Source: Marinilabiliaceae bacterium (GTDB lineage: Bacteria; Bacteroidota; Bacteroidia; Bacteroidales; Marinilabiliaceae). Taken from it: 64,000 nucleotides of DNA. Location: contig JAEINY010000004.1 in NCBI GenBank assembly GCA_016342595.1, positions 1 to 64,000 of the forward strand, in the 5' to 3' direction. Of the stretch, positions 20,444 to 56,147 are shown in pieces. The translations under genes and the position numbers were made by a program. Within the stretch, counting starts at the first letter, position 1; the number at the start of each line of letters is the position of its first letter. The notes under the pieces are model-generated. The model did no database searches and was not told where the DNA came from. It was given only the letters and a program-made list of their open reading frames with translations.

Positions 20444-21754
20444 TCACGTTTTAAATACGCTGGAAGTTTCCAAAAAGCACTTCAGATCTGAATAATTTTT
20501 CGTTAACGCGGTTGTACTTTTAGTGCCATGCATAAATCGTTCCAGACGCTGTGGTTGCTGAATTTTTTGTTGTGTCTCCATCTCTACTGTCTCAGGAAAT
20601 TTTGCCGGATGAGCTGTGGCCAGAAAGATTCCTTTTTCATCCTTTTTAAGATTTTTCTGCAGGGCCCTATATCCTACTGCTCCGTGAGGATCAAGTACAT
20701 ACCTGTGCTTTTTAAAGACAATCCGAATAGTTTCTTTGATTTGCTCATCAGTAACAGATAAACCTGTTAAACAATCTTGAATTTTGTTTAAATTATTATC
20801 AAAGATGGTTTGAATACGCACAAAATTACTGGGATCTCCCACATCCATTGCATTAGCAGGTGTCGCAATACTGGGGGCAGGATGATAATTTCCTGTTTCC
20901 AGATAATGTGGTACAATATCATTTACATTCGTTGCGGCAACAAATCGTTTGACGGGTAAACCCATCTGCGCAGCAATAACACCGGCAGTTAAGTTTCCGA
21001 AGTTTCCACTTGGCACACAGATAACAGTGTCTTTCCAGTCTTGTCGCTTGATTTGTCCGAAAGCATAAAAATAATAGACCATTTGGGGCAGAAAGCGTGC
21101 CAGATTGATGGAGTTCGCTGACGTCAAAACAATCTCTTGTCTTAAAGCCTCATCCATAAAAGCCGTTTTTACCAGGCGTTGACAATCATCAAAGGTGCCT
21201 TTTACCTCAAGAGCCTGAATATTCTGCCCAAGTGTGGTAAATTGTTTTTCTTGCACCTCACTCACCAATCCTTCAGGATATAATATAATAACGTTAACAC
21301 CTTCTACTCCCAAAAAACCATTGGCTACAGCGCTGCCGGTGTCTCCCGAAGTAGCCACCAATACGTTAATGGGCTTCCCTCCATTTTCGGTGAATTGCGA
21401 CATGACACGAGCAAGGAAACGAGATCCGATATCTTTGAACGCTAAAGTGGGCCCGTGAAATAATTCTAAGGCTGATATTTCTTCGGAAACAGGAACAACA
21501 GGAATGGGGAAGTTAAAGGCTTCATCCGTGATTTGGTGGAACACTTCTTCCGGAATATCCGGACAGAAAAAATGCCTGAGTGTTTCAAAGCCAATCTCAC
21601 CCAACGATAAATTGGGTAGTTGCTGCCAGAATTCCTCGGGCATCACCGGAATGTGTTCCGGCATATAAAGCCCATTATCGGGTGCCAAACCTTGCAGGAC
21701 GGCATTTTTAAGATTACTGCTTAAGTTTTTATTATTGGTGCTGTAAAATTGCAT
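20444..21754 (-). CDS. thrC: Threonine synthase
   Basis: 436 aa PLP enzyme converting phosphohomoserine to threonine. The cofactor lysine is in HGPTLAFKDIGSRF; VATSGDTGSAVANGF and PSGNFGNLTAG are the PLP-phosphate and tail motifs. The N-terminus MQFYSTNNKN...APDNGLYMP is typical of the E. coli-type enzyme. Third gene of the threonine operon, 204 bp after the homoserine kinase-like gene. Confidence 0.96.
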   Translation of the reverse strand: MQFYSTNNKNLSSNLKNAVLQGLAPDNGLYMPEHIPVMPEEFWQQLPNLSLGEIGFETLRHFFCPDIPEEVFHQITDEAFNFPIPVVPVSEEISALELFHGPTLAFKDIGSRFLARVMSQFTENGGKPINVLVATSGDTGSAVANGFLGVEGVNVIILYPEGLVSEVQEKQFTTLGQNIQALEVKGTFDDCQRLVKTAFMDEALRQEIVLTSANSINLARFLPQMVYYFYAFGQIKRQDWKDTVICVPSGNFGNLTAGVIAAQMGLPVKRFVAATNVNDIVPHYLETGNYHPAPSIATPANAMDVGDPSNFVRIQTIFDNNLNKIQDCLTGLSVTDEQIKETIRIVFKKHRYVLDPHGAVGYRALQKNLKKDEKGIFLATAHPAKFPETVEMETQQKIQQPQRLERFMHGTKSTTALTKNYSDLKCFLETSSVFKT

Positions 21755-21958: not shown

Positions 21959-23170
21959 TTATTCCTGAAGCAGTGTCAACATAAACTCTGTCTGATTCAG
22001 AAAACCAATACTTCCTTCCATCACAGATTCCTCATTATACTCCTGTACGGTATCTCCCGGGACCCCTGGACGGCGAATCAGAAACGGTACATGATCGCGT
22101 GTATGGGTGCGAATCTCACAAGGTGTAGGATGGTCTGGTAATAAGGCCACTGTAATTGATTCATTATGTTCACTCAGATACTTCAGAATGGGTGCGACCA
22201 CTAAGCGATCAATGTCTTCCAGTGTTTTTATCTTCAGTTCAACATCCCCTTCGTGCCCGGCTTCATCAGGTGCTTCGATGTGCAGGAATACGTAATCATT
22301 TGATTCCATCGCTTTCAAGGCCGCTTCCGCTTTGCCTGAATAGTTGGTATCAAACAATCCCGTAGCCCCTTCCACGAAGATGGATTCTAAACCGGCTAGC
22401 TTACCCAATCCGTGAATCAAATCAACAGCTGAAATCACCGCACCTTTATCAATCCCATAAAGCTCTTTCAATAATGGCATTTGCGGTTTATGACCGGGCG
22501 ACCAGGGCCAAATCATATTGGCCAGCGGCTTACCTTCCTTCTGACGTTTAATATTAACAGGATGCTCCGTCAACAGATCCCTGGATGCTAACATTAATTC
22601 CTGTAATAGTTTCGCTGTGTCTTCTGACTTTTCAGTAGCCGTTGGCAATACGTCTTTCACAGACGCACCGGGTACATCGTGGGGAGGAGTACAAGACACC
22701 CCATTCACCCCGTTTTTGATCACCAACACATTTCGGTAACTCACACCCGGATAAAACTGTACCCGATCATTACCCAGCTTTTCATTGAGCAGATGAATCA
22801 GTTGATGAGCCTCTTCAGTAGACACATGACCACCTGAGTGATTAACTAATTGGCCCTGGTGTTCAGTCACCAGGTTACAGCGAAAGACCAGATCGTTAGC
22901 CTGAATATCCACTCCCAATGCTGCAGCTTCCAACACCCCCCGTCCCTGGTAATATTTTTCAGCATCATAGCCCATGATGGTCATGTTGGCCACCTCGCTG
23001 CCCGGATGCAAGGAATCGGGCACCGTTTTCAATGTGCCACAACAGGCCTGCTGACACAATTGATCGATGTGTGGTGTGTGGGCCACCATCATTGGTGTTT
23101 TGTAGCCCAAGTGCTCAATGGGCCGATCGGCAAAGCCATCGGCTAATATTACCAGGTATTTCATGTTCAT
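21959..23170 (-). CDS. iPGM-like protein, probable homoserine kinase
   Basis: 403 aa of the alkaline-phosphatase/cofactor-independent phosphoglycerate mutase (ApgM-type) superfamily: VILADGFADRP (metal Asp), PGSEVANMTIMGY, NHSGGHVS, FLHIEAPDEAGHEGD and LLPDHPTPCE (metal-binding Asp/His). Bacteroidota lack a GHMP-type thrB here, and this family sits between thrA and thrC; homologues there are annotated as proposed homoserine kinases. That function follows from context, not from motifs. Start taken at ATG 23170 (23164 is an alternative), which avoids overlapping thrA. Confidence 0.85.
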   Translation of the reverse strand: MNMKYLVILADGFADRPIEHLGYKTPMMVAHTPHIDQLCQQACCGTLKTVPDSLHPGSEVANMTIMGYDAEKYYQGRGVLEAAALGVDIQANDLVFRCNLVTEHQGQLVNHSGGHVSTEEAHQLIHLLNEKLGNDRVQFYPGVSYRNVLVIKNGVNGVSCTPPHDVPGASVKDVLPTATEKSEDTAKLLQELMLASRDLLTEHPVNIKRQKEGKPLANMIWPWSPGHKPQMPLLKELYGIDKGAVISAVDLIHGLGKLAGLESIFVEGATGLFDTNYSGKAEAALKAMESNDYVFLHIEAPDEAGHEGDVELKIKTLEDIDRLVVAPILKYLSEHNESITVALLPDHPTPCEIRTHTRDHVPFLIRRPGVPGDTVQEYNEESVMEGSIGFLNQTEFMLTLLQE

Positions 23171-23177
23171 GGTTGGT

Positions 23178-25604
23178 TTATAGGTTAGCAACTTTTATTA
23201 TATCCGCAAATACACCCGCCGCTGTTACATCGGCTCCGGCACCGTATCCCTTGATCTCCATGGGATGATCAAAGTAATAATCAGATCGTAACAACACTTT
23301 ATTATTGCTATCCTCCAGTTTAAAAAAAGCATGATTGTTATCTACCTCGGCAAAACCCACTTTGGCTTTACCTTCTTTTAGCGATGCGGTATACCTTAAT
23401 ATATGACCGTTCTGTTCAGCTTTCAATCGCAATTGCTCAAAGGGAGCATCATATGCCTTTAGGCGCTCCATAAAAGCATCCACGGATTCATCCTGAAAAT
23501 ACTCAGTTGGCAGAAAAGAATCAATCTCAATATCCTCCTTTTCCAAAGGATAGTCACATTCGCGTGATAAAATTAATAATTTGCGTAATACATCAGTACC
23601 TTTGAGATCGATGCGCGGATCCGGTTCACTATATCCTTTTTCTTTCGCTTCCTTCACCACTTCCGAAAGTTTCCGGTCGGCCGAAACGGTATTAACAATG
23701 TAATTTAAGGTACCGGATAGTACGCCTTCCAGCTCCACAATGCGATCACCACTATTGATCAAACTATTGATGGTATTGATAATGGGTAGCCCCGCTCCCA
23801 CATTGGTTTCAAACAGATACTTCACGCCTTTTTCACGAGCCGTCTGCTTCAGCTTCTGATACTGCGCATAAGCCGATGAACTGGCTATTTTGTTGGCAGT
23901 GATCACCGAGATATTATGCTCCAGGATGTATTGATAGTGATGGGCTACTTTTTCACTGGCGGTGCAATCAACAAATACACTATTGGAATGGTTATTGGAA
24001 GCCATCTGCTCCACAAACTGATCGATACCCCCCGATTGACCATCCACTAATTGTTCAGACGCGTTCGTCAAATCCATTCCCCCTGCATCAAACAACATCT
24101 GACGGGAGTTGGCAATGCCCACCAGGCGAATCTTCAATTGCTCGGTATCCATCAACCGTTTAGCTTGCCGTTCAATTTTGTCCAGGAGGTTTTTACCAAC
24201 GGTACCAACGCCAGCCAGATACAGGTGAATCACCTGGTAGTGGCTCAGAAAGAATGCTTCATGCACCACATTTAAAGCCTTGCGCAGATCTTTGTTTTTC
24301 ACCACAAACGAGATATTTAGCTCGGAGGCTCCCTGGGCAATGGCATATATATTAACCCCGTTCTTCCCGATACTGTTAAACAGTTGTCCGGCTACGCCTG
24401 TGGTATGTTTCATGCCTTCACCCACAATGGCCACCACCGCCATATCATGATCTACGGCCACACCATTAATCTGCTTACGTTCAATTTCAAGGATAAATTC
24501 ATCCTGCAAGGCTTTTTGAGCCAATGCCGCATCTGCTGAGCTAATGACCACGCTGATGCTGTTTTCACTGGATGCCTGTGAGATCAGCACCACATTGATA
24601 TCCTCTTCCGCCAATGCTTTAAACAAGCGCATGGAGATACCGGATATACCAATCATACCCATTCCCTGCACGGTTATTAATGCCATCTCTTTAATAGAAG
24701 AAATTCCCTTTACCTTATGCGCCTCTGGCTGATTATCTTGCTGATCGATCAAGGTGCCGGCTGCTTCGGGATTAAATGTATTTTTAATCAATACCGGGAT
24801 ATTCTTTTGCAACACCGGAATAATGGTAGGTGGATAGATGACCTTTGCCCCAAAATGCGAGAGCTCCATAGCCTCGGCATAAGTAAGGTGATTGAGCGAA
24901 TAAGCCCAGCTAATGATACGCGGATCAGCCGACATGAATCCATCCACATCGGTCCATATTTCCAACACATCAGCATCCAATCCGGCGGCCAGGATAGCAG
25001 CTGAATAATCGGAGCCGCCACGGCCCAAAGTAGTGGTTTCACCTTTCTCATCAGATGCAATGTAACCAGGAAAAATGGCTACTTGTGGCTGATCCTGCAA
25101 GAGCTGATGAATATTTGGAAGGGAGACCTCCATTTTCACCTGGTGACCACTTCCATTCAGGTAGGTTTTAATCACCTCGCGACTATCGTACAAACGGGCA
25201 CCTTTAATTAAGTGACTGATAATTGCTGAAGAGAGCCGCTCACCGCACCCGGAAATGGTGTCATAACTTTTAGCACTCAGCTCACCGGTGAGGTTCACCC
25301 CTTTCAGGATGTCTTCCAATTCACTCCAAATGGGTGCTAATTGAGTTTGTACTGTTAACCCCAATGCCGGCGTAAATAACTCCTTAATAATTTGCAGGTG
25401 GGTATCTTTGAGTGATTTCAGTTGGTCTGTGTAAGATTCTCTGGCAGCCGCGGCATTGGCGGCACCAATCAAGCGATCGGTCACACCTCCTACTGCAGAA
25501 ACCACCACTGCTACTGGTTCACTGTTTTTTTCGACGATGCGCTTAACGTTTATCATGGCCATGGATGATCCCATGGATGTACCACCAAACTTAAGTACTT
25601 TCAT
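23178..25604 (-). CDS. thrA: Bifunctional aspartokinase / homoserine dehydrogenase I
   Basis: 808 aa from ATG 25604, which gives the canonical MKVLKFGGTSMG start; longer in-frame readings upstream overlap the leader peptide and are rejected. Aspartokinase domain (1-290), two ACT regulatory domains (about 310-450, ALITVQGMGM and VAIVGEGMKHT), homoserine dehydrogenase (about 460-808) with LAGVGTVGKNLL, DCTASEKVAHHY, ANKIASS and EPDPRIDLKGTDVLRKLL. Catalyses the first and third steps toward threonine and methionine. The next gene follows after 7 nt. Confidence 0.97.
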   Translation of the reverse strand: MKVLKFGGTSMGSSMAMINVKRIVEKNSEPVAVVVSAVGGVTDRLIGAANAAAARESYTDQLKSLKDTHLQIIKELFTPALGLTVQTQLAPIWSELEDILKGVNLTGELSAKSYDTISGCGERLSSAIISHLIKGARLYDSREVIKTYLNGSGHQVKMEVSLPNIHQLLQDQPQVAIFPGYIASDEKGETTTLGRGGSDYSAAILAAGLDADVLEIWTDVDGFMSADPRIISWAYSLNHLTYAEAMELSHFGAKVIYPPTIIPVLQKNIPVLIKNTFNPEAAGTLIDQQDNQPEAHKVKGISSIKEMALITVQGMGMIGISGISMRLFKALAEEDINVVLISQASSENSISVVISSADAALAQKALQDEFILEIERKQINGVAVDHDMAVVAIVGEGMKHTTGVAGQLFNSIGKNGVNIYAIAQGASELNISFVVKNKDLRKALNVVHEAFFLSHYQVIHLYLAGVGTVGKNLLDKIERQAKRLMDTEQLKIRLVGIANSRQMLFDAGGMDLTNASEQLVDGQSGGIDQFVEQMASNNHSNSVFVDCTASEKVAHHYQYILEHNISVITANKIASSSAYAQYQKLKQTAREKGVKYLFETNVGAGLPIINTINSLINSGDRIVELEGVLSGTLNYIVNTVSADRKLSEVVKEAKEKGYSEPDPRIDLKGTDVLRKLLILSRECDYPLEKEDIEIDSFLPTEYFQDESVDAFMERLKAYDAPFEQLRLKAEQNGHILRYTASLKEGKAKVGFAEVDNNHAFFKLEDSNNKVLLRSDYYFDHPMEIKGYGAGADVTAAGVFADIIKVANL

Positions 25605-25675
25605 ACTATTAAGATTTGATAAAATGAGTAGTAAAAAAATTGAATAATGAAACGAGACCTGAGAATATAAAAATG

Positions 25676-25735
25676 CTATACCCCCCAAGGGGTGATGGTA
25701 GATGTAATTGTGATGAAGAAATTACGAATAGTCAT
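25676..25735 (-). CDS. thrL: thr operon leader peptide (attenuator)
   Basis: 19 codons: MTIRNFFITITSTITPWGV and stop. Five Thr and four Ile, with an ITITSTIT run, the same design as E. coli ThrL, whose translation senses Thr/Ile-tRNA charging. A GC hairpin (ACCCC-TTGG-GGGGT) overlaps the end of the ORF and is followed by ATAGCATTTTTA. The ORF begins about 30 nt after a good promoter and ends 71 nt before thrA. Homology is by design only; a search of related genomes would settle it. Confidence 0.75.
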   Translation of the reverse strand: MTIRNFFITITSTITPWGV

Positions 25736-25765
25736 TTATTAGGTCTTTTTGGTAATGATTCATTG

Positions 25766-25795
25766 CAAAAATAGGCATAAAAATTAAAAAACAAA
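25766..25795 (-). promoter_or_regulatory. Promoter of the thr operon
   Basis: On the minus strand, TTTG (25795-25792), 18 nt, then TATTTTTG (25773-25766): an exact match to the Bacteroidota sigma-ABfr consensus, about 30 nt before the leader peptide. Confidence 0.75.
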
Positions 25796-26000
25796 ATTAA
25801 AGATGACTTTTGTTAGGTTTTATTGAAATTAATCATCGCAAAGACGCAGAGACGCCAGGCAGTTCTCAATAAGCTTAGAATTTACTTCCCTACTTCTACC
25901 GGATAGTTTTATAGAATAATCGGAATTTCTCTTTTGCAATAGGAGTTAACTAGTAGCTAGTTCACAAATTAATATTTTATAATTGAATGATGTATTCATC

Positions 26001-28449: not shown

Positions 28450-31400
28450 CTACGCTTTTAAGTCCCGTTCGATCTTCTTTTTCATCGAACCGGTTTTTCC
28501 CAGTAAGTTTTTTATTTCGATGGTGACAGTATTTGTGGCTTCTGCCTTTGCTTTGGCAACAGCTTCCGCTTCAGAACTTGTTTCCACTTTAATGGTGGGA
28601 TTCACTTCAATCTTCGGATTGACTTCTACTTTATTTGAAGGACTATACTCGTTTTTTATTTGATTAATGCTCATACCCATTTCTTTTAATTGATGTAGTA
28701 AATTTCCATCCCGATTGTCCTTGGCCGCATTTTCAATGACGATATCACTCAGAACCTGACCAATGTTAACAGGGTTGTAATTATTGTTTTTACATTCATC
28801 GGTATAATAGCGACGGTGTTTGATTTTATCAAGTAGTTTACCATAATCGTAAAACGTGGGTTTATGTCCATTGCGCATTTTGGACATACATGCTTCACAG
28901 TTACAGGCGACTAATTCTCTTAATGGGAGGTTTTTGAAATCATCGTGTAAATTTTCCACTGCCGACCTGATAGCTTGCAGCAGGTGCTTACACCCCTCAT
29001 TGGGGCCATTTAGTTTAATATCGATGACCGGTTGGTTGGAGTCCGGATCATTAAATTGCTGAACTTCGGCCCGTATGTTATCACCGTTATAAGATCCCAC
29101 GAGGCGCATTCCGGTTTTCCACCGGTGTTCCCCTTCTATCTTCTCATGTAGTTTCACAATTAAGCGGGCAAACATGCCATGTGGAAAGAAACCATATTGA
29201 TACCTTAAATGCAGGTTGGTCTTTAATTGCCATTGGGTAGGTTTGTCGTTAGGTAGTAACAGTGGGGTTATGAATACATCCTTTTCATGGGGAAGCTCAA
29301 AGCAGATGTCAAATTTATCTTTTAGTAACAAATTGAACAACATCTCCTTCTCCTCTTCACTGTATTCTTTATGATTCCATTTCTCGTAGGCTTGCTGACG
29401 TGTAAAGCTACCTTTGTTGTCCTGGATCGTTTTATCCGATAATATATAATACATCCCTGCCGTCAGCCAGTTGTGATCCAGGAAAATGCGCGAACACAAT
29501 CCCCGATCATCAAAGTAGGTGAGATCACCCAAACTACACATGTAATAAAGACATAAATCGGCGTGATCCCTTGATAAGCCAATCTCCGGTTGTTCACAGA
29601 TCGTGTAAAATTGGTTCTTGGTGATGTATTTCTTATGCCTCTGTTTTTCCAGTTCATTCCTTACCAAGGGCCATTTTTTGGGTACAGGTCGGTTTACTAT
29701 CTCTAAACCCGAAAGTTCCCTGGCAATGGTTTCATTTAAATCCAACCATTTAAATTTATCTTTGCCTTGTATGTGTTGCAAATTAACTTCAACACTTTGA
29801 ATGTTCAAACCGGGAAATAACTCCCTGTATTTTGTGATCGCAAAGTTATCCGTAGCCCCATCTACTTCTTTAGGGTTTTCCAATACAATCACACTACTAT
29901 TAGGCCCCAGTAAATTGATGATTTGAAACCAGTAATCAAAATGCGTGTTTTCAGCCCGTTTATCAGATACCAATGCATAGATGCAATTTTCAGTTATAAA
30001 AAACTGGTGCAACATTTTTTGGATATCTTGTCCGCCAAAGTCCCAAAAGTGTGCATTAATGGTCACTGGTTTTTCCTGATGTGGAAATGCTTTCCCTTTA
30101 TATACATCGATACCCAGGGTGGATTTTAATTTTCCTTGTTTCACCTTATAGTTGGGATCAAACTGCAGTTTGGTAAAAGTGGTTTTACCAGCACCACCCT
30201 GCCCAAGTACCATGAATTTAGATTCATAAAGTGGTTCAAGTCCCTCCTTTGTTTGATCAAACCAGTCCAACACAGCCTCCCGCCCCTTTTCTATAATAAC
30301 CATTGGGGGATTTGTAAGAGGATTTCCACCAATATTTATGTTTCCAATCCAATCTTTCGATATACTTATTCCTCTTTGCAACAGGAAACCTAAAGCTATA
30401 ATATCACTGATTTGATTGGATGTCAGATCTAAGGTTTGAATATTTGTGAGCTTTTCCAAAAAGCTAATATTGCTGATTTGATTGAAGCCAAGATCTAAAG
30501 TTTGAAGTTGTGTTAACTTTTCCAAACAGCCAATATCGCTGATTTGATTGGAGCCAAGGTCTAAAGATTGAAGATTCGTGAGTTGTTCTAAAAGGCTAAT
30601 ATTACTGATTTGATTAGAGCGCAGATTTAAAGATTGAAGATTTGGGAGTTGTTCCAAAAAGCCAATATCGATGATTTGATTGGAGGCAAGATCTAAAGTT
30701 TGAAGTTTCGTGAATTGATTCAAAAAGCCGATATTACTAATTTGATTACTGCTAAGATCTAAAATTTGAAGATTCGTGAGTTGTTCCAAAAAGCTAGTAT
30801 CACAGATTTGATTAGAGCGTAGTTTTAAAGTCTGAAGATTGGTGAGCTTACCTAAAATACTATAATCACTGATTTGATTGGAGCTAAGATTTAAAGATTG
30901 AAGATTCGTGAGCTTACCTAAAATACTATAATCACTGATTTGATTGGAGCTAAGATCTAAAGATTGAAGATTCGTGAGTTGTACCAAAAAACCAATATCA
31001 TTGATTTCATTTGAGCTAAGATCTAAAGTTTGAAGATTCGAGAGCTTTTCTAAAAAACTATAATCGCTGATTTGAACGGAGCGAAGATCTAAAGATTGAA
31101 GATTCGGGAACTTCTCCAAAAAACTATAATCGCTGATTTGAACGGAACTGAGATCTAAGGATTGAAGATCCGAGATATTTTCCAAAAAGCTAATGTCGCT
31201 TATTTGATTATCACTGAGATATAAAGATTGAAGATTCGGAAGCTTTTCCAAAACACTATAATCGTTGATTTGATTACTACTAATATCTAATATGCGAAGC
31301 TCTGTAAGGTTCTCCAAGTAGCTAATATCCCATATTTGATTATCGCTGAGATCTAATACCTCAAGCATTGTCATCATTTCAAGTTGATGACATGTTTTTA

Positions 31401-31692
31401 ACCTCCATTGATTTAAAAAACTGGAATAAAAAAAGCGTTTCAATTTTTTAAAGTTCTTAAAGCCATCCGGCAGGGTTTCGTTGGTAAATTCATTTTCCTC
31501 TGCATTATTGTAGCTTATAACCCAATCTTTCTTTTCATCACCCCATCTGAATACAGAAAAACTCAACTCCTCCAGCCAAGTCAACTCAAATAATTCTTTG
31601 GGAAAATCTGTTAATCCACAATTCCCTAAATCCAATTTTCCAGTACGTTCTTTCTTTTCTTTGGCAATAAGTTTAAGGGCTAAATCGGACAT
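28450..31692 (-). CDS. LRR-Roc-COR (Roco) family GTPase
   Basis: 1080 aa. Residues 109-438 are fifteen 22-residue leucine-rich repeats (LxxLxLSSNQIsDi), units 7 and 8 nearly identical. Then the Roc GTPase with P-loop GQGGAGKT (497-504) and switch II DFGGQ, followed by COR, a CNCEACMSKM cysteine cluster and a charged tail. The G4 guanine motif NKxD is degenerate (LENPKEVDG). Bacterial Roco proteins are cytosolic nucleotide-controlled dimers; the role here is unknown, possibly signalling or defence. The reading frame continues past a TAG into a further domain (28147-28449). Confidence 0.93.
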   Translation of the reverse strand: MSDLALKLIAKEKKERTGKLDLGNCGLTDFPKELFELTWLEELSFSVFRWGDEKKDWVISYNNAEENEFTNETLPDGFKNFKKLKRFFYSSFLNQWRLKTCHQLEMMTMLEVLDLSDNQIWDISYLENLTELRILDISSNQINDYSVLEKLPNLQSLYLSDNQISDISFLENISDLQSLDLSSVQISDYSFLEKFPNLQSLDLRSVQISDYSFLEKLSNLQTLDLSSNEINDIGFLVQLTNLQSLDLSSNQISDYSILGKLTNLQSLNLSSNQISDYSILGKLTNLQTLKLRSNQICDTSFLEQLTNLQILDLSSNQISNIGFLNQFTKLQTLDLASNQIIDIGFLEQLPNLQSLNLRSNQISNISLLEQLTNLQSLDLGSNQISDIGCLEKLTQLQTLDLGFNQISNISFLEKLTNIQTLDLTSNQISDIIALGFLLQRGISISKDWIGNINIGGNPLTNPPMVIIEKGREAVLDWFDQTKEGLEPLYESKFMVLGQGGAGKTTFTKLQFDPNYKVKQGKLKSTLGIDVYKGKAFPHQEKPVTINAHFWDFGGQDIQKMLHQFFITENCIYALVSDKRAENTHFDYWFQIINLLGPNSSVIVLENPKEVDGATDNFAITKYRELFPGLNIQSVEVNLQHIQGKDKFKWLDLNETIARELSGLEIVNRPVPKKWPLVRNELEKQRHKKYITKNQFYTICEQPEIGLSRDHADLCLYYMCSLGDLTYFDDRGLCSRIFLDHNWLTAGMYYILSDKTIQDNKGSFTRQQAYEKWNHKEYSEEEKEMLFNLLLKDKFDICFELPHEKDVFITPLLLPNDKPTQWQLKTNLHLRYQYGFFPHGMFARLIVKLHEKIEGEHRWKTGMRLVGSYNGDNIRAEVQQFNDPDSNQPVIDIKLNGPNEGCKHLLQAIRSAVENLHDDFKNLPLRELVACNCEACMSKMRNGHKPTFYDYGKLLDKIKHRRYYTDECKNNNYNPVNIGQVLSDIVIENAAKDNRDGNLLHQLKEMGMSINQIKNEYSPSNKVEVNPKIEVNPTIKVETSSEAEAVAKAKAEATNTVTIEIKNLLGKTGSMKKKIERDLKA
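30841..30972 (-). repeat. Recent tandem duplication of one 66-bp LRR unit
   Basis: 30841-30906 and 30907-30972 differ at 2 of 66 positions, far less than other LRR units of the same gene. Encodes LRR units 8 and 7. Confidence 0.85.
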
Positions 31693-56027: not shown

Positions 56028-56053
56028 TTATTTTACTACTTTCGCAGCAAGTA

Positions 56054-56107
56054 AAGGAAATGGTGTCTTCCTACTCAACCGCCTCCAAAGGCTGATGACG
56101 CCTGTTT
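56054..56107 (+). promoter_or_regulatory. Fluoride riboswitch (crcB motif)
   Basis: Shows the conserved core: GGAAATGGTGTCTTCC, then AACCGCC-tccaaa-GGC and CTGATGACGCCTG, matching the crcB-motif layout (GG-nn-AUGG, pseudoknot AACCGC, GCUGAUGAc-CCU). It lies 41 nt upstream of a CLC-F type gene, one of the classical target families. A TACTTTCG box at about 56037-56044 could be its -7 element. Confidence 0.93.
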
Positions 56108-56147
56108 AAAAATATGGAAGAGGTATATCTTTTAAACAGCAATCAGC

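Follow-up and report, generated by a model that had tools for sequence, protein, structure and literature searches.

Thr leader peptides are textbook knowledge in enterobacteria. The thrA locus of a Marinilabiliaceae bacterium raises the question of whether a short Thr- and Ile-rich ORF ahead of the gene acts in the same manner in Bacteroidota and, if so, through which stop signal. We analysed the first 64,000 nucleotides of contig JAEINY010000004.1, hereafter the window, together with thrA loci collected from named genomes, relatives and a sample of the phylum; two regions with erroneous coordinates (L154 and L172) were left out.

A leader ORF between promoter and thrA

The leader ORF (ATG ACT ATT CGT AAT TTC TTC ATC ACA ATT ACA TCT ACC ATC ACC CCT TGG GGG GTA TAG) is followed, 71 nt downstream of its stop codon, by the ATG of thrA at 25604 and then by the remaining genes of the threonine operon (Table 1). 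When the 300 nt upstream of thrA were dinucleotide-shuffled, none of 2000 shuffles yielded a comparable ORF, defined as one with Thr or Ile at 6 of 8 residues. Directly upstream, TTG-N18-TATTTTTG at 25794-25766 of the minus strand matches the Bacteroidota promoter consensus, from which we infer a transcription start near 25760. A sigma-70 scan upstream of the leader returned no promoter, as expected since the phylum follows the Bacteroidota consensus; that scan was dropped as uninformative and replaced by the latter. Both the 19-codon ITITSTIT ORF and the consensus promoter proposed in the first-pass annotation are thus present on the minus strand. Elsewhere in the window lie a fluoride riboswitch (56047-56111, plus strand; RF01734, 53.7 bits) and an ORF of 1080 amino acids (28450-31692, minus strand) in which many leucine-rich repeats precede a GTPase-like P-loop (GQGGAGKTT), and which by eye resembles the ROC type.

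Table 1. Positions of the leader, its signals and the thr genes in the window
Feature	Position	Strand	Details
Promoter, Bacteroidota type	25766..25795	-	-33 TTTG (25795-25792), -7 TATTTTTG (25773-25766)
P1a 5' strand (AGACCT)	25741..25746	-	5' UTR, immediately upstream of leader
Leader ORF	25735..25676	-	MTIRNFFITITSTITPWGV + TAG, 19 codons
Regulatory codons 8-15, ITITSTIT (ATC ACA ATT ACA TCT ACC ATC ACC)	25691..25714	-	
Hairpin P2 (ACCCC-TTGG-GGGGT)	25680..25693	-	Over last leader codons, ends 1 nt before stop codon
Leader-to-thrA spacer	25605..25675	-	U-rich; no canonical terminator, no second promoter box
P1a 3' strand (AGGTCT)	25655..25660	-	Downstream of leader
thrA, bifunctional aspartate kinase/homoserine dehydrogenase I	23178..25604	-	NF006959, 1011.7 bits (cut-off 726)
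Proposed homoserine kinase (phosphoglycerate-mutase-like), replaces thrB	21959..23170	-	TIGR02535, 529 bits (cut-off 446.3)
thrC, threonine synthase	20444..21754	-	TIGR00260, 309.1 bits (cut-off 167.1)

Conservation of the leader within the family

In the family of the window, whose closest named relatives are Carboxylicivirga and Saccharicrinis, a leader precedes thrA at 34 loci, with a weaker one at a further locus (L125), and is absent from 15, several genera being without it. Measured against the conservation of thrA itself, as the first-pass annotation had proposed, the leader holds at the former loci and fails at the latter. Examples are MMIYNLTNTTTTTTTPWGV, MNYIITNITTSTTTPWGV and MIELVNILTSTTTTTTP, with MMIYISLNITTTTTTTTTTTTPWGV (locus L119) among the extreme cases. 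Thr accounts for 30.7% of the residues in the 34 leaders versus 4.5% in ThrA, and Ile for 13.9% versus 8.8%. The Thr codons are retained while the remaining residues of the peptide drift, and ACC (67), ACA (65) and ACT (57) are used about equally, with ACG found three times, so that it is the amino acid rather than the codon that is conserved.

The promoter accompanies the leader. A TAnnTTTG box, mostly located ~30 nt upstream of the leader, is found at all 34 family loci compared with 4.8 expected from shuffles, and the -33 element is additionally present at 31 of them (0.8 expected). At about half of the 15 leader-less loci, a promoter box is situated 24-71 nt before thrA. Comparison across these loci shows a single putative promoter serving both leader and thrA. 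The locus would comprise a leader ORF that carries codons for the pathway product and is co-transcribed with the operon, which is one feature of ribosome-mediated attenuators.

Leaders upstream of thrA beyond the family

Similar leaders are observed upstream of thrA in Bacteroidaceae, in other Bacteroidales and in Flavobacteriia-like relatives, and a Thr-type leader such as MNLHKINITSSNSIVMTTITMITIITP was also recovered from the sample of the same class. The leaders of Bacteroidaceae, exemplified by MYYYPFTTGMEMTITRMSTSMMMTPRG, combine Thr (23.2%) with Met (14.2%, versus 1.9% in ThrA), with Ile reduced to 2.7% (versus 9.2% in ThrA). In Tannerellaceae (L025, L028, L032, L041, L073 and L061), the thrA leader is short and nearly fixed as YYTWALMTPWG with few Thr codons, which places it outside a simple codon model, and it may sense a signal other than threonine.

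Bacteroidaceae loci display additional elements of their own. Downstream of the leader, a conserved element GTGTTTCTACGTGATACAC is present (for example at L017, L047 and L064), after which many loci carry a stem, GCTTA-YGGAYG-TAAGC, whose arms vary yet match; the element and its stem have no match in Rfam. By eye, an element downstream of the leader that contains GTGTTTCTACGTG...CAC is likewise conserved in Bacteroidaceae.

A hairpin at the leader end and the search for a terminator

The Thr/Ile codons of the window run into hairpin P2, which is formed by the last codons of the leader. Among 77 leaders examined, a stem-loop at this position is built from 21 distinct arm pairs, although its universal presence arises partly by construction because most of the set was selected by a C-run/G-run hairpin; Thr, Ile and Met content alone sufficed to identify the same-class loci whose arms differ. 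Most arms are variants of ACCCC/GGGGT, and GATCCGC/GCGGATT, ACGGG/CCCGT and ACCTCT/AGAGGT also occur. For 18 leaders the stop codon falls in the loop and for 19 in the 3' arm; in 39 it comes 0-12 nt past the hairpin. A family-wide search with a signature pattern matched 22 of 71 genomes once each, 21 of these matches being at a thrA leader, and the reversed control pattern gave no match.

A GC hairpin and a T-stretch had been noted after the regulatory codons. Both exist; however, the hairpin resides inside the ORF, and the T-stretches (five T at 25673-25669 and seven T at 25639-25633) do not directly follow a stem. A hairpin-plus-U search detected no canonical intrinsic terminator after the window leader, whereas the same approach recovered strong terminators in all eight positive controls (-15.6 to -24.4 kcal/mol), comprising two his leaders and one ilv leader from the same genome as well as five Bacteroidales trp leaders. 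The absence of a terminator from the window, set against its presence behind the control leaders, indicates that the thr leader differs from the E. coli arrangement, which this genome does employ for his and ilv. Within the family, 12 of the 34 thr leaders give weaker matches of -7.7 to -13.0 kcal/mol that are mixed in sequence and position, and in two distant relatives (L159 and L168) a classical terminator lies behind a Thr/Ile or Thr leader.

Neither of the two stems was retained as a terminator. P2 was rejected in this role, as it overlaps the end of the ORF beside the stop codon and has no canonical terminator downstream. The long-range pairing P1, described below, was also considered and set aside; the U run begins 15 nt past P1 in the window, and P1 is missing in one genus group. 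Among the control loci, two His leader peptides stand in tandem upstream of hisG (contig C144, L201); both MQTFIHHHHHLFSALR and MNFQKQHHIHHHHTDPPGMSWNAIV have a canonical terminator of their own, and upstream of ilvD (contig C438, L202) a Leu/Ile/Val leader, MNFNLSLILNIIIILVDIT, precedes a strong terminator.

A predicted long-range pairing and the position of the ribosome

The sequence AGACCT (25746-25741) upstream of the leader can pair with AGGTCT (25660-25655) downstream of it and, together with the leader start region, this pairing, termed P1, would enclose the leader. In 13 aligned sequences, 94.6% of the cells belonging to P1 and P2 are paired, compared with 33-50% when slid, and few double-sided changes are found in P1 within the genus group. 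A shuffle test of P1 over 63 loci gave a weak mean z of -0.54, a test of low power since internal loops allow the shuffles to pair well, and the window leader does not fold more stably than its shuffles (z 0.03). P1 is thus likely to form in the genus group and is only suggestive beyond it. By eye, an analogous pairing of different sequence, TACTATCC with GGATAGTA, can be drawn in Bacteroidaceae, and in some relatives a second candidate partner of the leader start is visible further downstream.

We modelled leader folding while moving a ribosome footprint along the ORF codon by codon. In the window model, a ribosome at codons 1-4 abolishes P1a, and a ribosome at codons 12-13 abolishes P2 and frees its G arm for pairing downstream; once the ribosome has reached the stop codon, P2 lies beneath it. 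How the fold responds to a given position varies among species, and the relatives that were folded show the alternative G-arm pairing in weaker form or not at all. The model shows that the predicted leader fold can shift with the position of the ribosome. P1 and P2 are blocked from different codons, and no conserved competing structure leading to a transcription stop was found.

Possible mechanisms of thr operon control

On the basis of conserved codons, promoter and hairpin, together with the presence of His and Leu/Ile/Val leaders in the same genome, we consider it quite likely that the leader senses Thr in a manner dependent on ribosome position and, with somewhat less assurance, we favour control at the level of transcription. 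The leader peptide would sense charged tRNA-Thr (probably also tRNA-Ile in the family, and Met in Bacteroidaceae), such that the position of the translating ribosome would control the thrA-homoserine kinase-thrC operon, the Thr run ending on P2, which holds or abuts the stop codon. When Thr is plentiful, the ribosome would reach the stop codon and leave, allowing the leader to refold and transcription to halt upstream of thrA. Under a shortage of Thr-tRNA, the ribosome would remain on the Thr codons and perturb P1 and P2, and RNA polymerase would continue into thrA. The stop signal would be non-canonical, the candidates being termination by Rho and a composite signal made up of P1 together with the U-rich spacer.

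One form of this reading, which we regard as a serious contender though short of an even chance, is Rho-dependent attenuation, in which departure of the ribosome from the leader stop would leave a naked U-rich spacer on which Rho could terminate, and a ribosome stalled at Thr codons would block it. This is consistent with the lack of an intrinsic terminator and with the composition of the spacer, which is U-rich with C exceeding G (0.150 versus 0.125), the reverse of leader-less relatives (0.119 versus 0.149). The difference is small, however, rut sites are not reliably predictable in Bacteroidota, and Rho would leave P1 and P2 unexplained. A precedent is the E. coli toiL uORF of topAI, a short regulatory uORF at which ribosome stalling controls the downstream gene in connection with Rho-dependent termination; toiL differs in that it senses antibiotics and acts via the ribosome-binding site, and that Rho terminates there within the gene (PMC12121999).

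A classical attenuator of the E. coli thrL type, in which the ribosome would decide whether an antiterminator or an intrinsic terminator forms past the leader, appears unlikely. The leader, its codons and its position agree with such a scheme, as do the terminators of the two distant relatives and the downstream pairing of the G arm with a ribosome at codons 12-13 of the window. Against it, the window has no canonical terminator, the 12 family matches are mixed and fall short of all eight controls, and the G-arm alternative fades in the folded relatives. Control of thrA translation or mRNA stability instead of transcription seems a little less likely still: sequestration of the leader start region by P1 and the missing terminator would fit, but the leader-thrA spacer ranges from 60 to 283 nt among relatives, which leaves no constant placement relative to the thrA start codon. 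That the ORF arose by chance and is untranslated, as its mere 19 codons and its absence from 15 family loci might suggest, is very improbable given its conservation, with Thr maintained over many genera by three codons in similar numbers, and the outcome of the 2000 shuffles.

Returning to the ribosome-position-dependent Thr leader, we tentatively propose, as a possibility somewhat below even, a Bacteroidota-wide class of attenuators in which regulatory codons would end on a hairpin carrying or abutting the stop codon and no intrinsic terminator would be used (termination being Rho-dependent or composite), with Thr constant and the second sensed amino acid lineage-specific (Ile in Marinilabiliaceae-like bacteria, Met in Bacteroidaceae).

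Comparison with known leader systems

The locus had been described as following the same logic as E. coli thrL. As is generally known for thrL (RF00506), a leader with Thr and Ile codons lies between promoter and thrA, and to this extent the description stands, the Thr/Ile leader and shared promoter being conserved; it does not extend to an intrinsic terminator, which is lacking in the window and in most relatives. In addition, the hairpin is placed at the end of the leader and its stop codon, no terminator comes after the leader, and Bacteroidaceae leaders carry Thr and Met codons. The Thr_leader model RF00506 gave no match at its gathering score in the window, nor any with E up to 10 in 25550-25850, and Rfam searches at relaxed thresholds yielded nothing or chance matches. 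The thrA leader is most likely a variant of known leader-peptide attenuation that differs by the missing standard stop signal.

Closer to the phylum, Bacteroid-trp RNA (RF01692) is likewise an amino-acid leader peptide from the same order, but has a WWW leader, a strong intrinsic terminator and an antiterminator-like repeat; no copy was found in the genome and the window scan gave no match. In this genome's own his and ilv leaders, before hisG and ilvD, a leader peptide likewise contains regulatory codons, but a canonical terminator follows in each case (-15.6 to -19.5 kcal/mol, with a T run). RF01692 is the sole known Bacteroidota leader family that we met in Rfam. Transcriptome studies report clues to leader-peptide attenuation upstream of amino-acid operons in Flavobacterium psychrophilum (PMC9723704) and mention leader-like sORFs in B. 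thetaiotaomicron (PMC7366714). Our literature search found no description of a Bacteroidota thrA leader, although an earlier prediction is possible (2010 attenuation survey, Lopatovskaya et al.). The suggestion that such control is little studied in the phylum thus holds only in part, given RF01692 and the F. psychrophilum clues.

If the proposed reading is correct, Bacteroidota, including the main gut genera, would govern threonine synthesis through ribosome position, using an RNA design that terminator-based searches would have overlooked. The difference between Ile and Met among the sensed codons would mean that regulation tracks the branches of the aspartate pathway. Moreover, a single genome in which the his and ilv leaders have intrinsic terminators and the thr leader has none would offer a clean system for stalled-ribosome control without a hairpin terminator.
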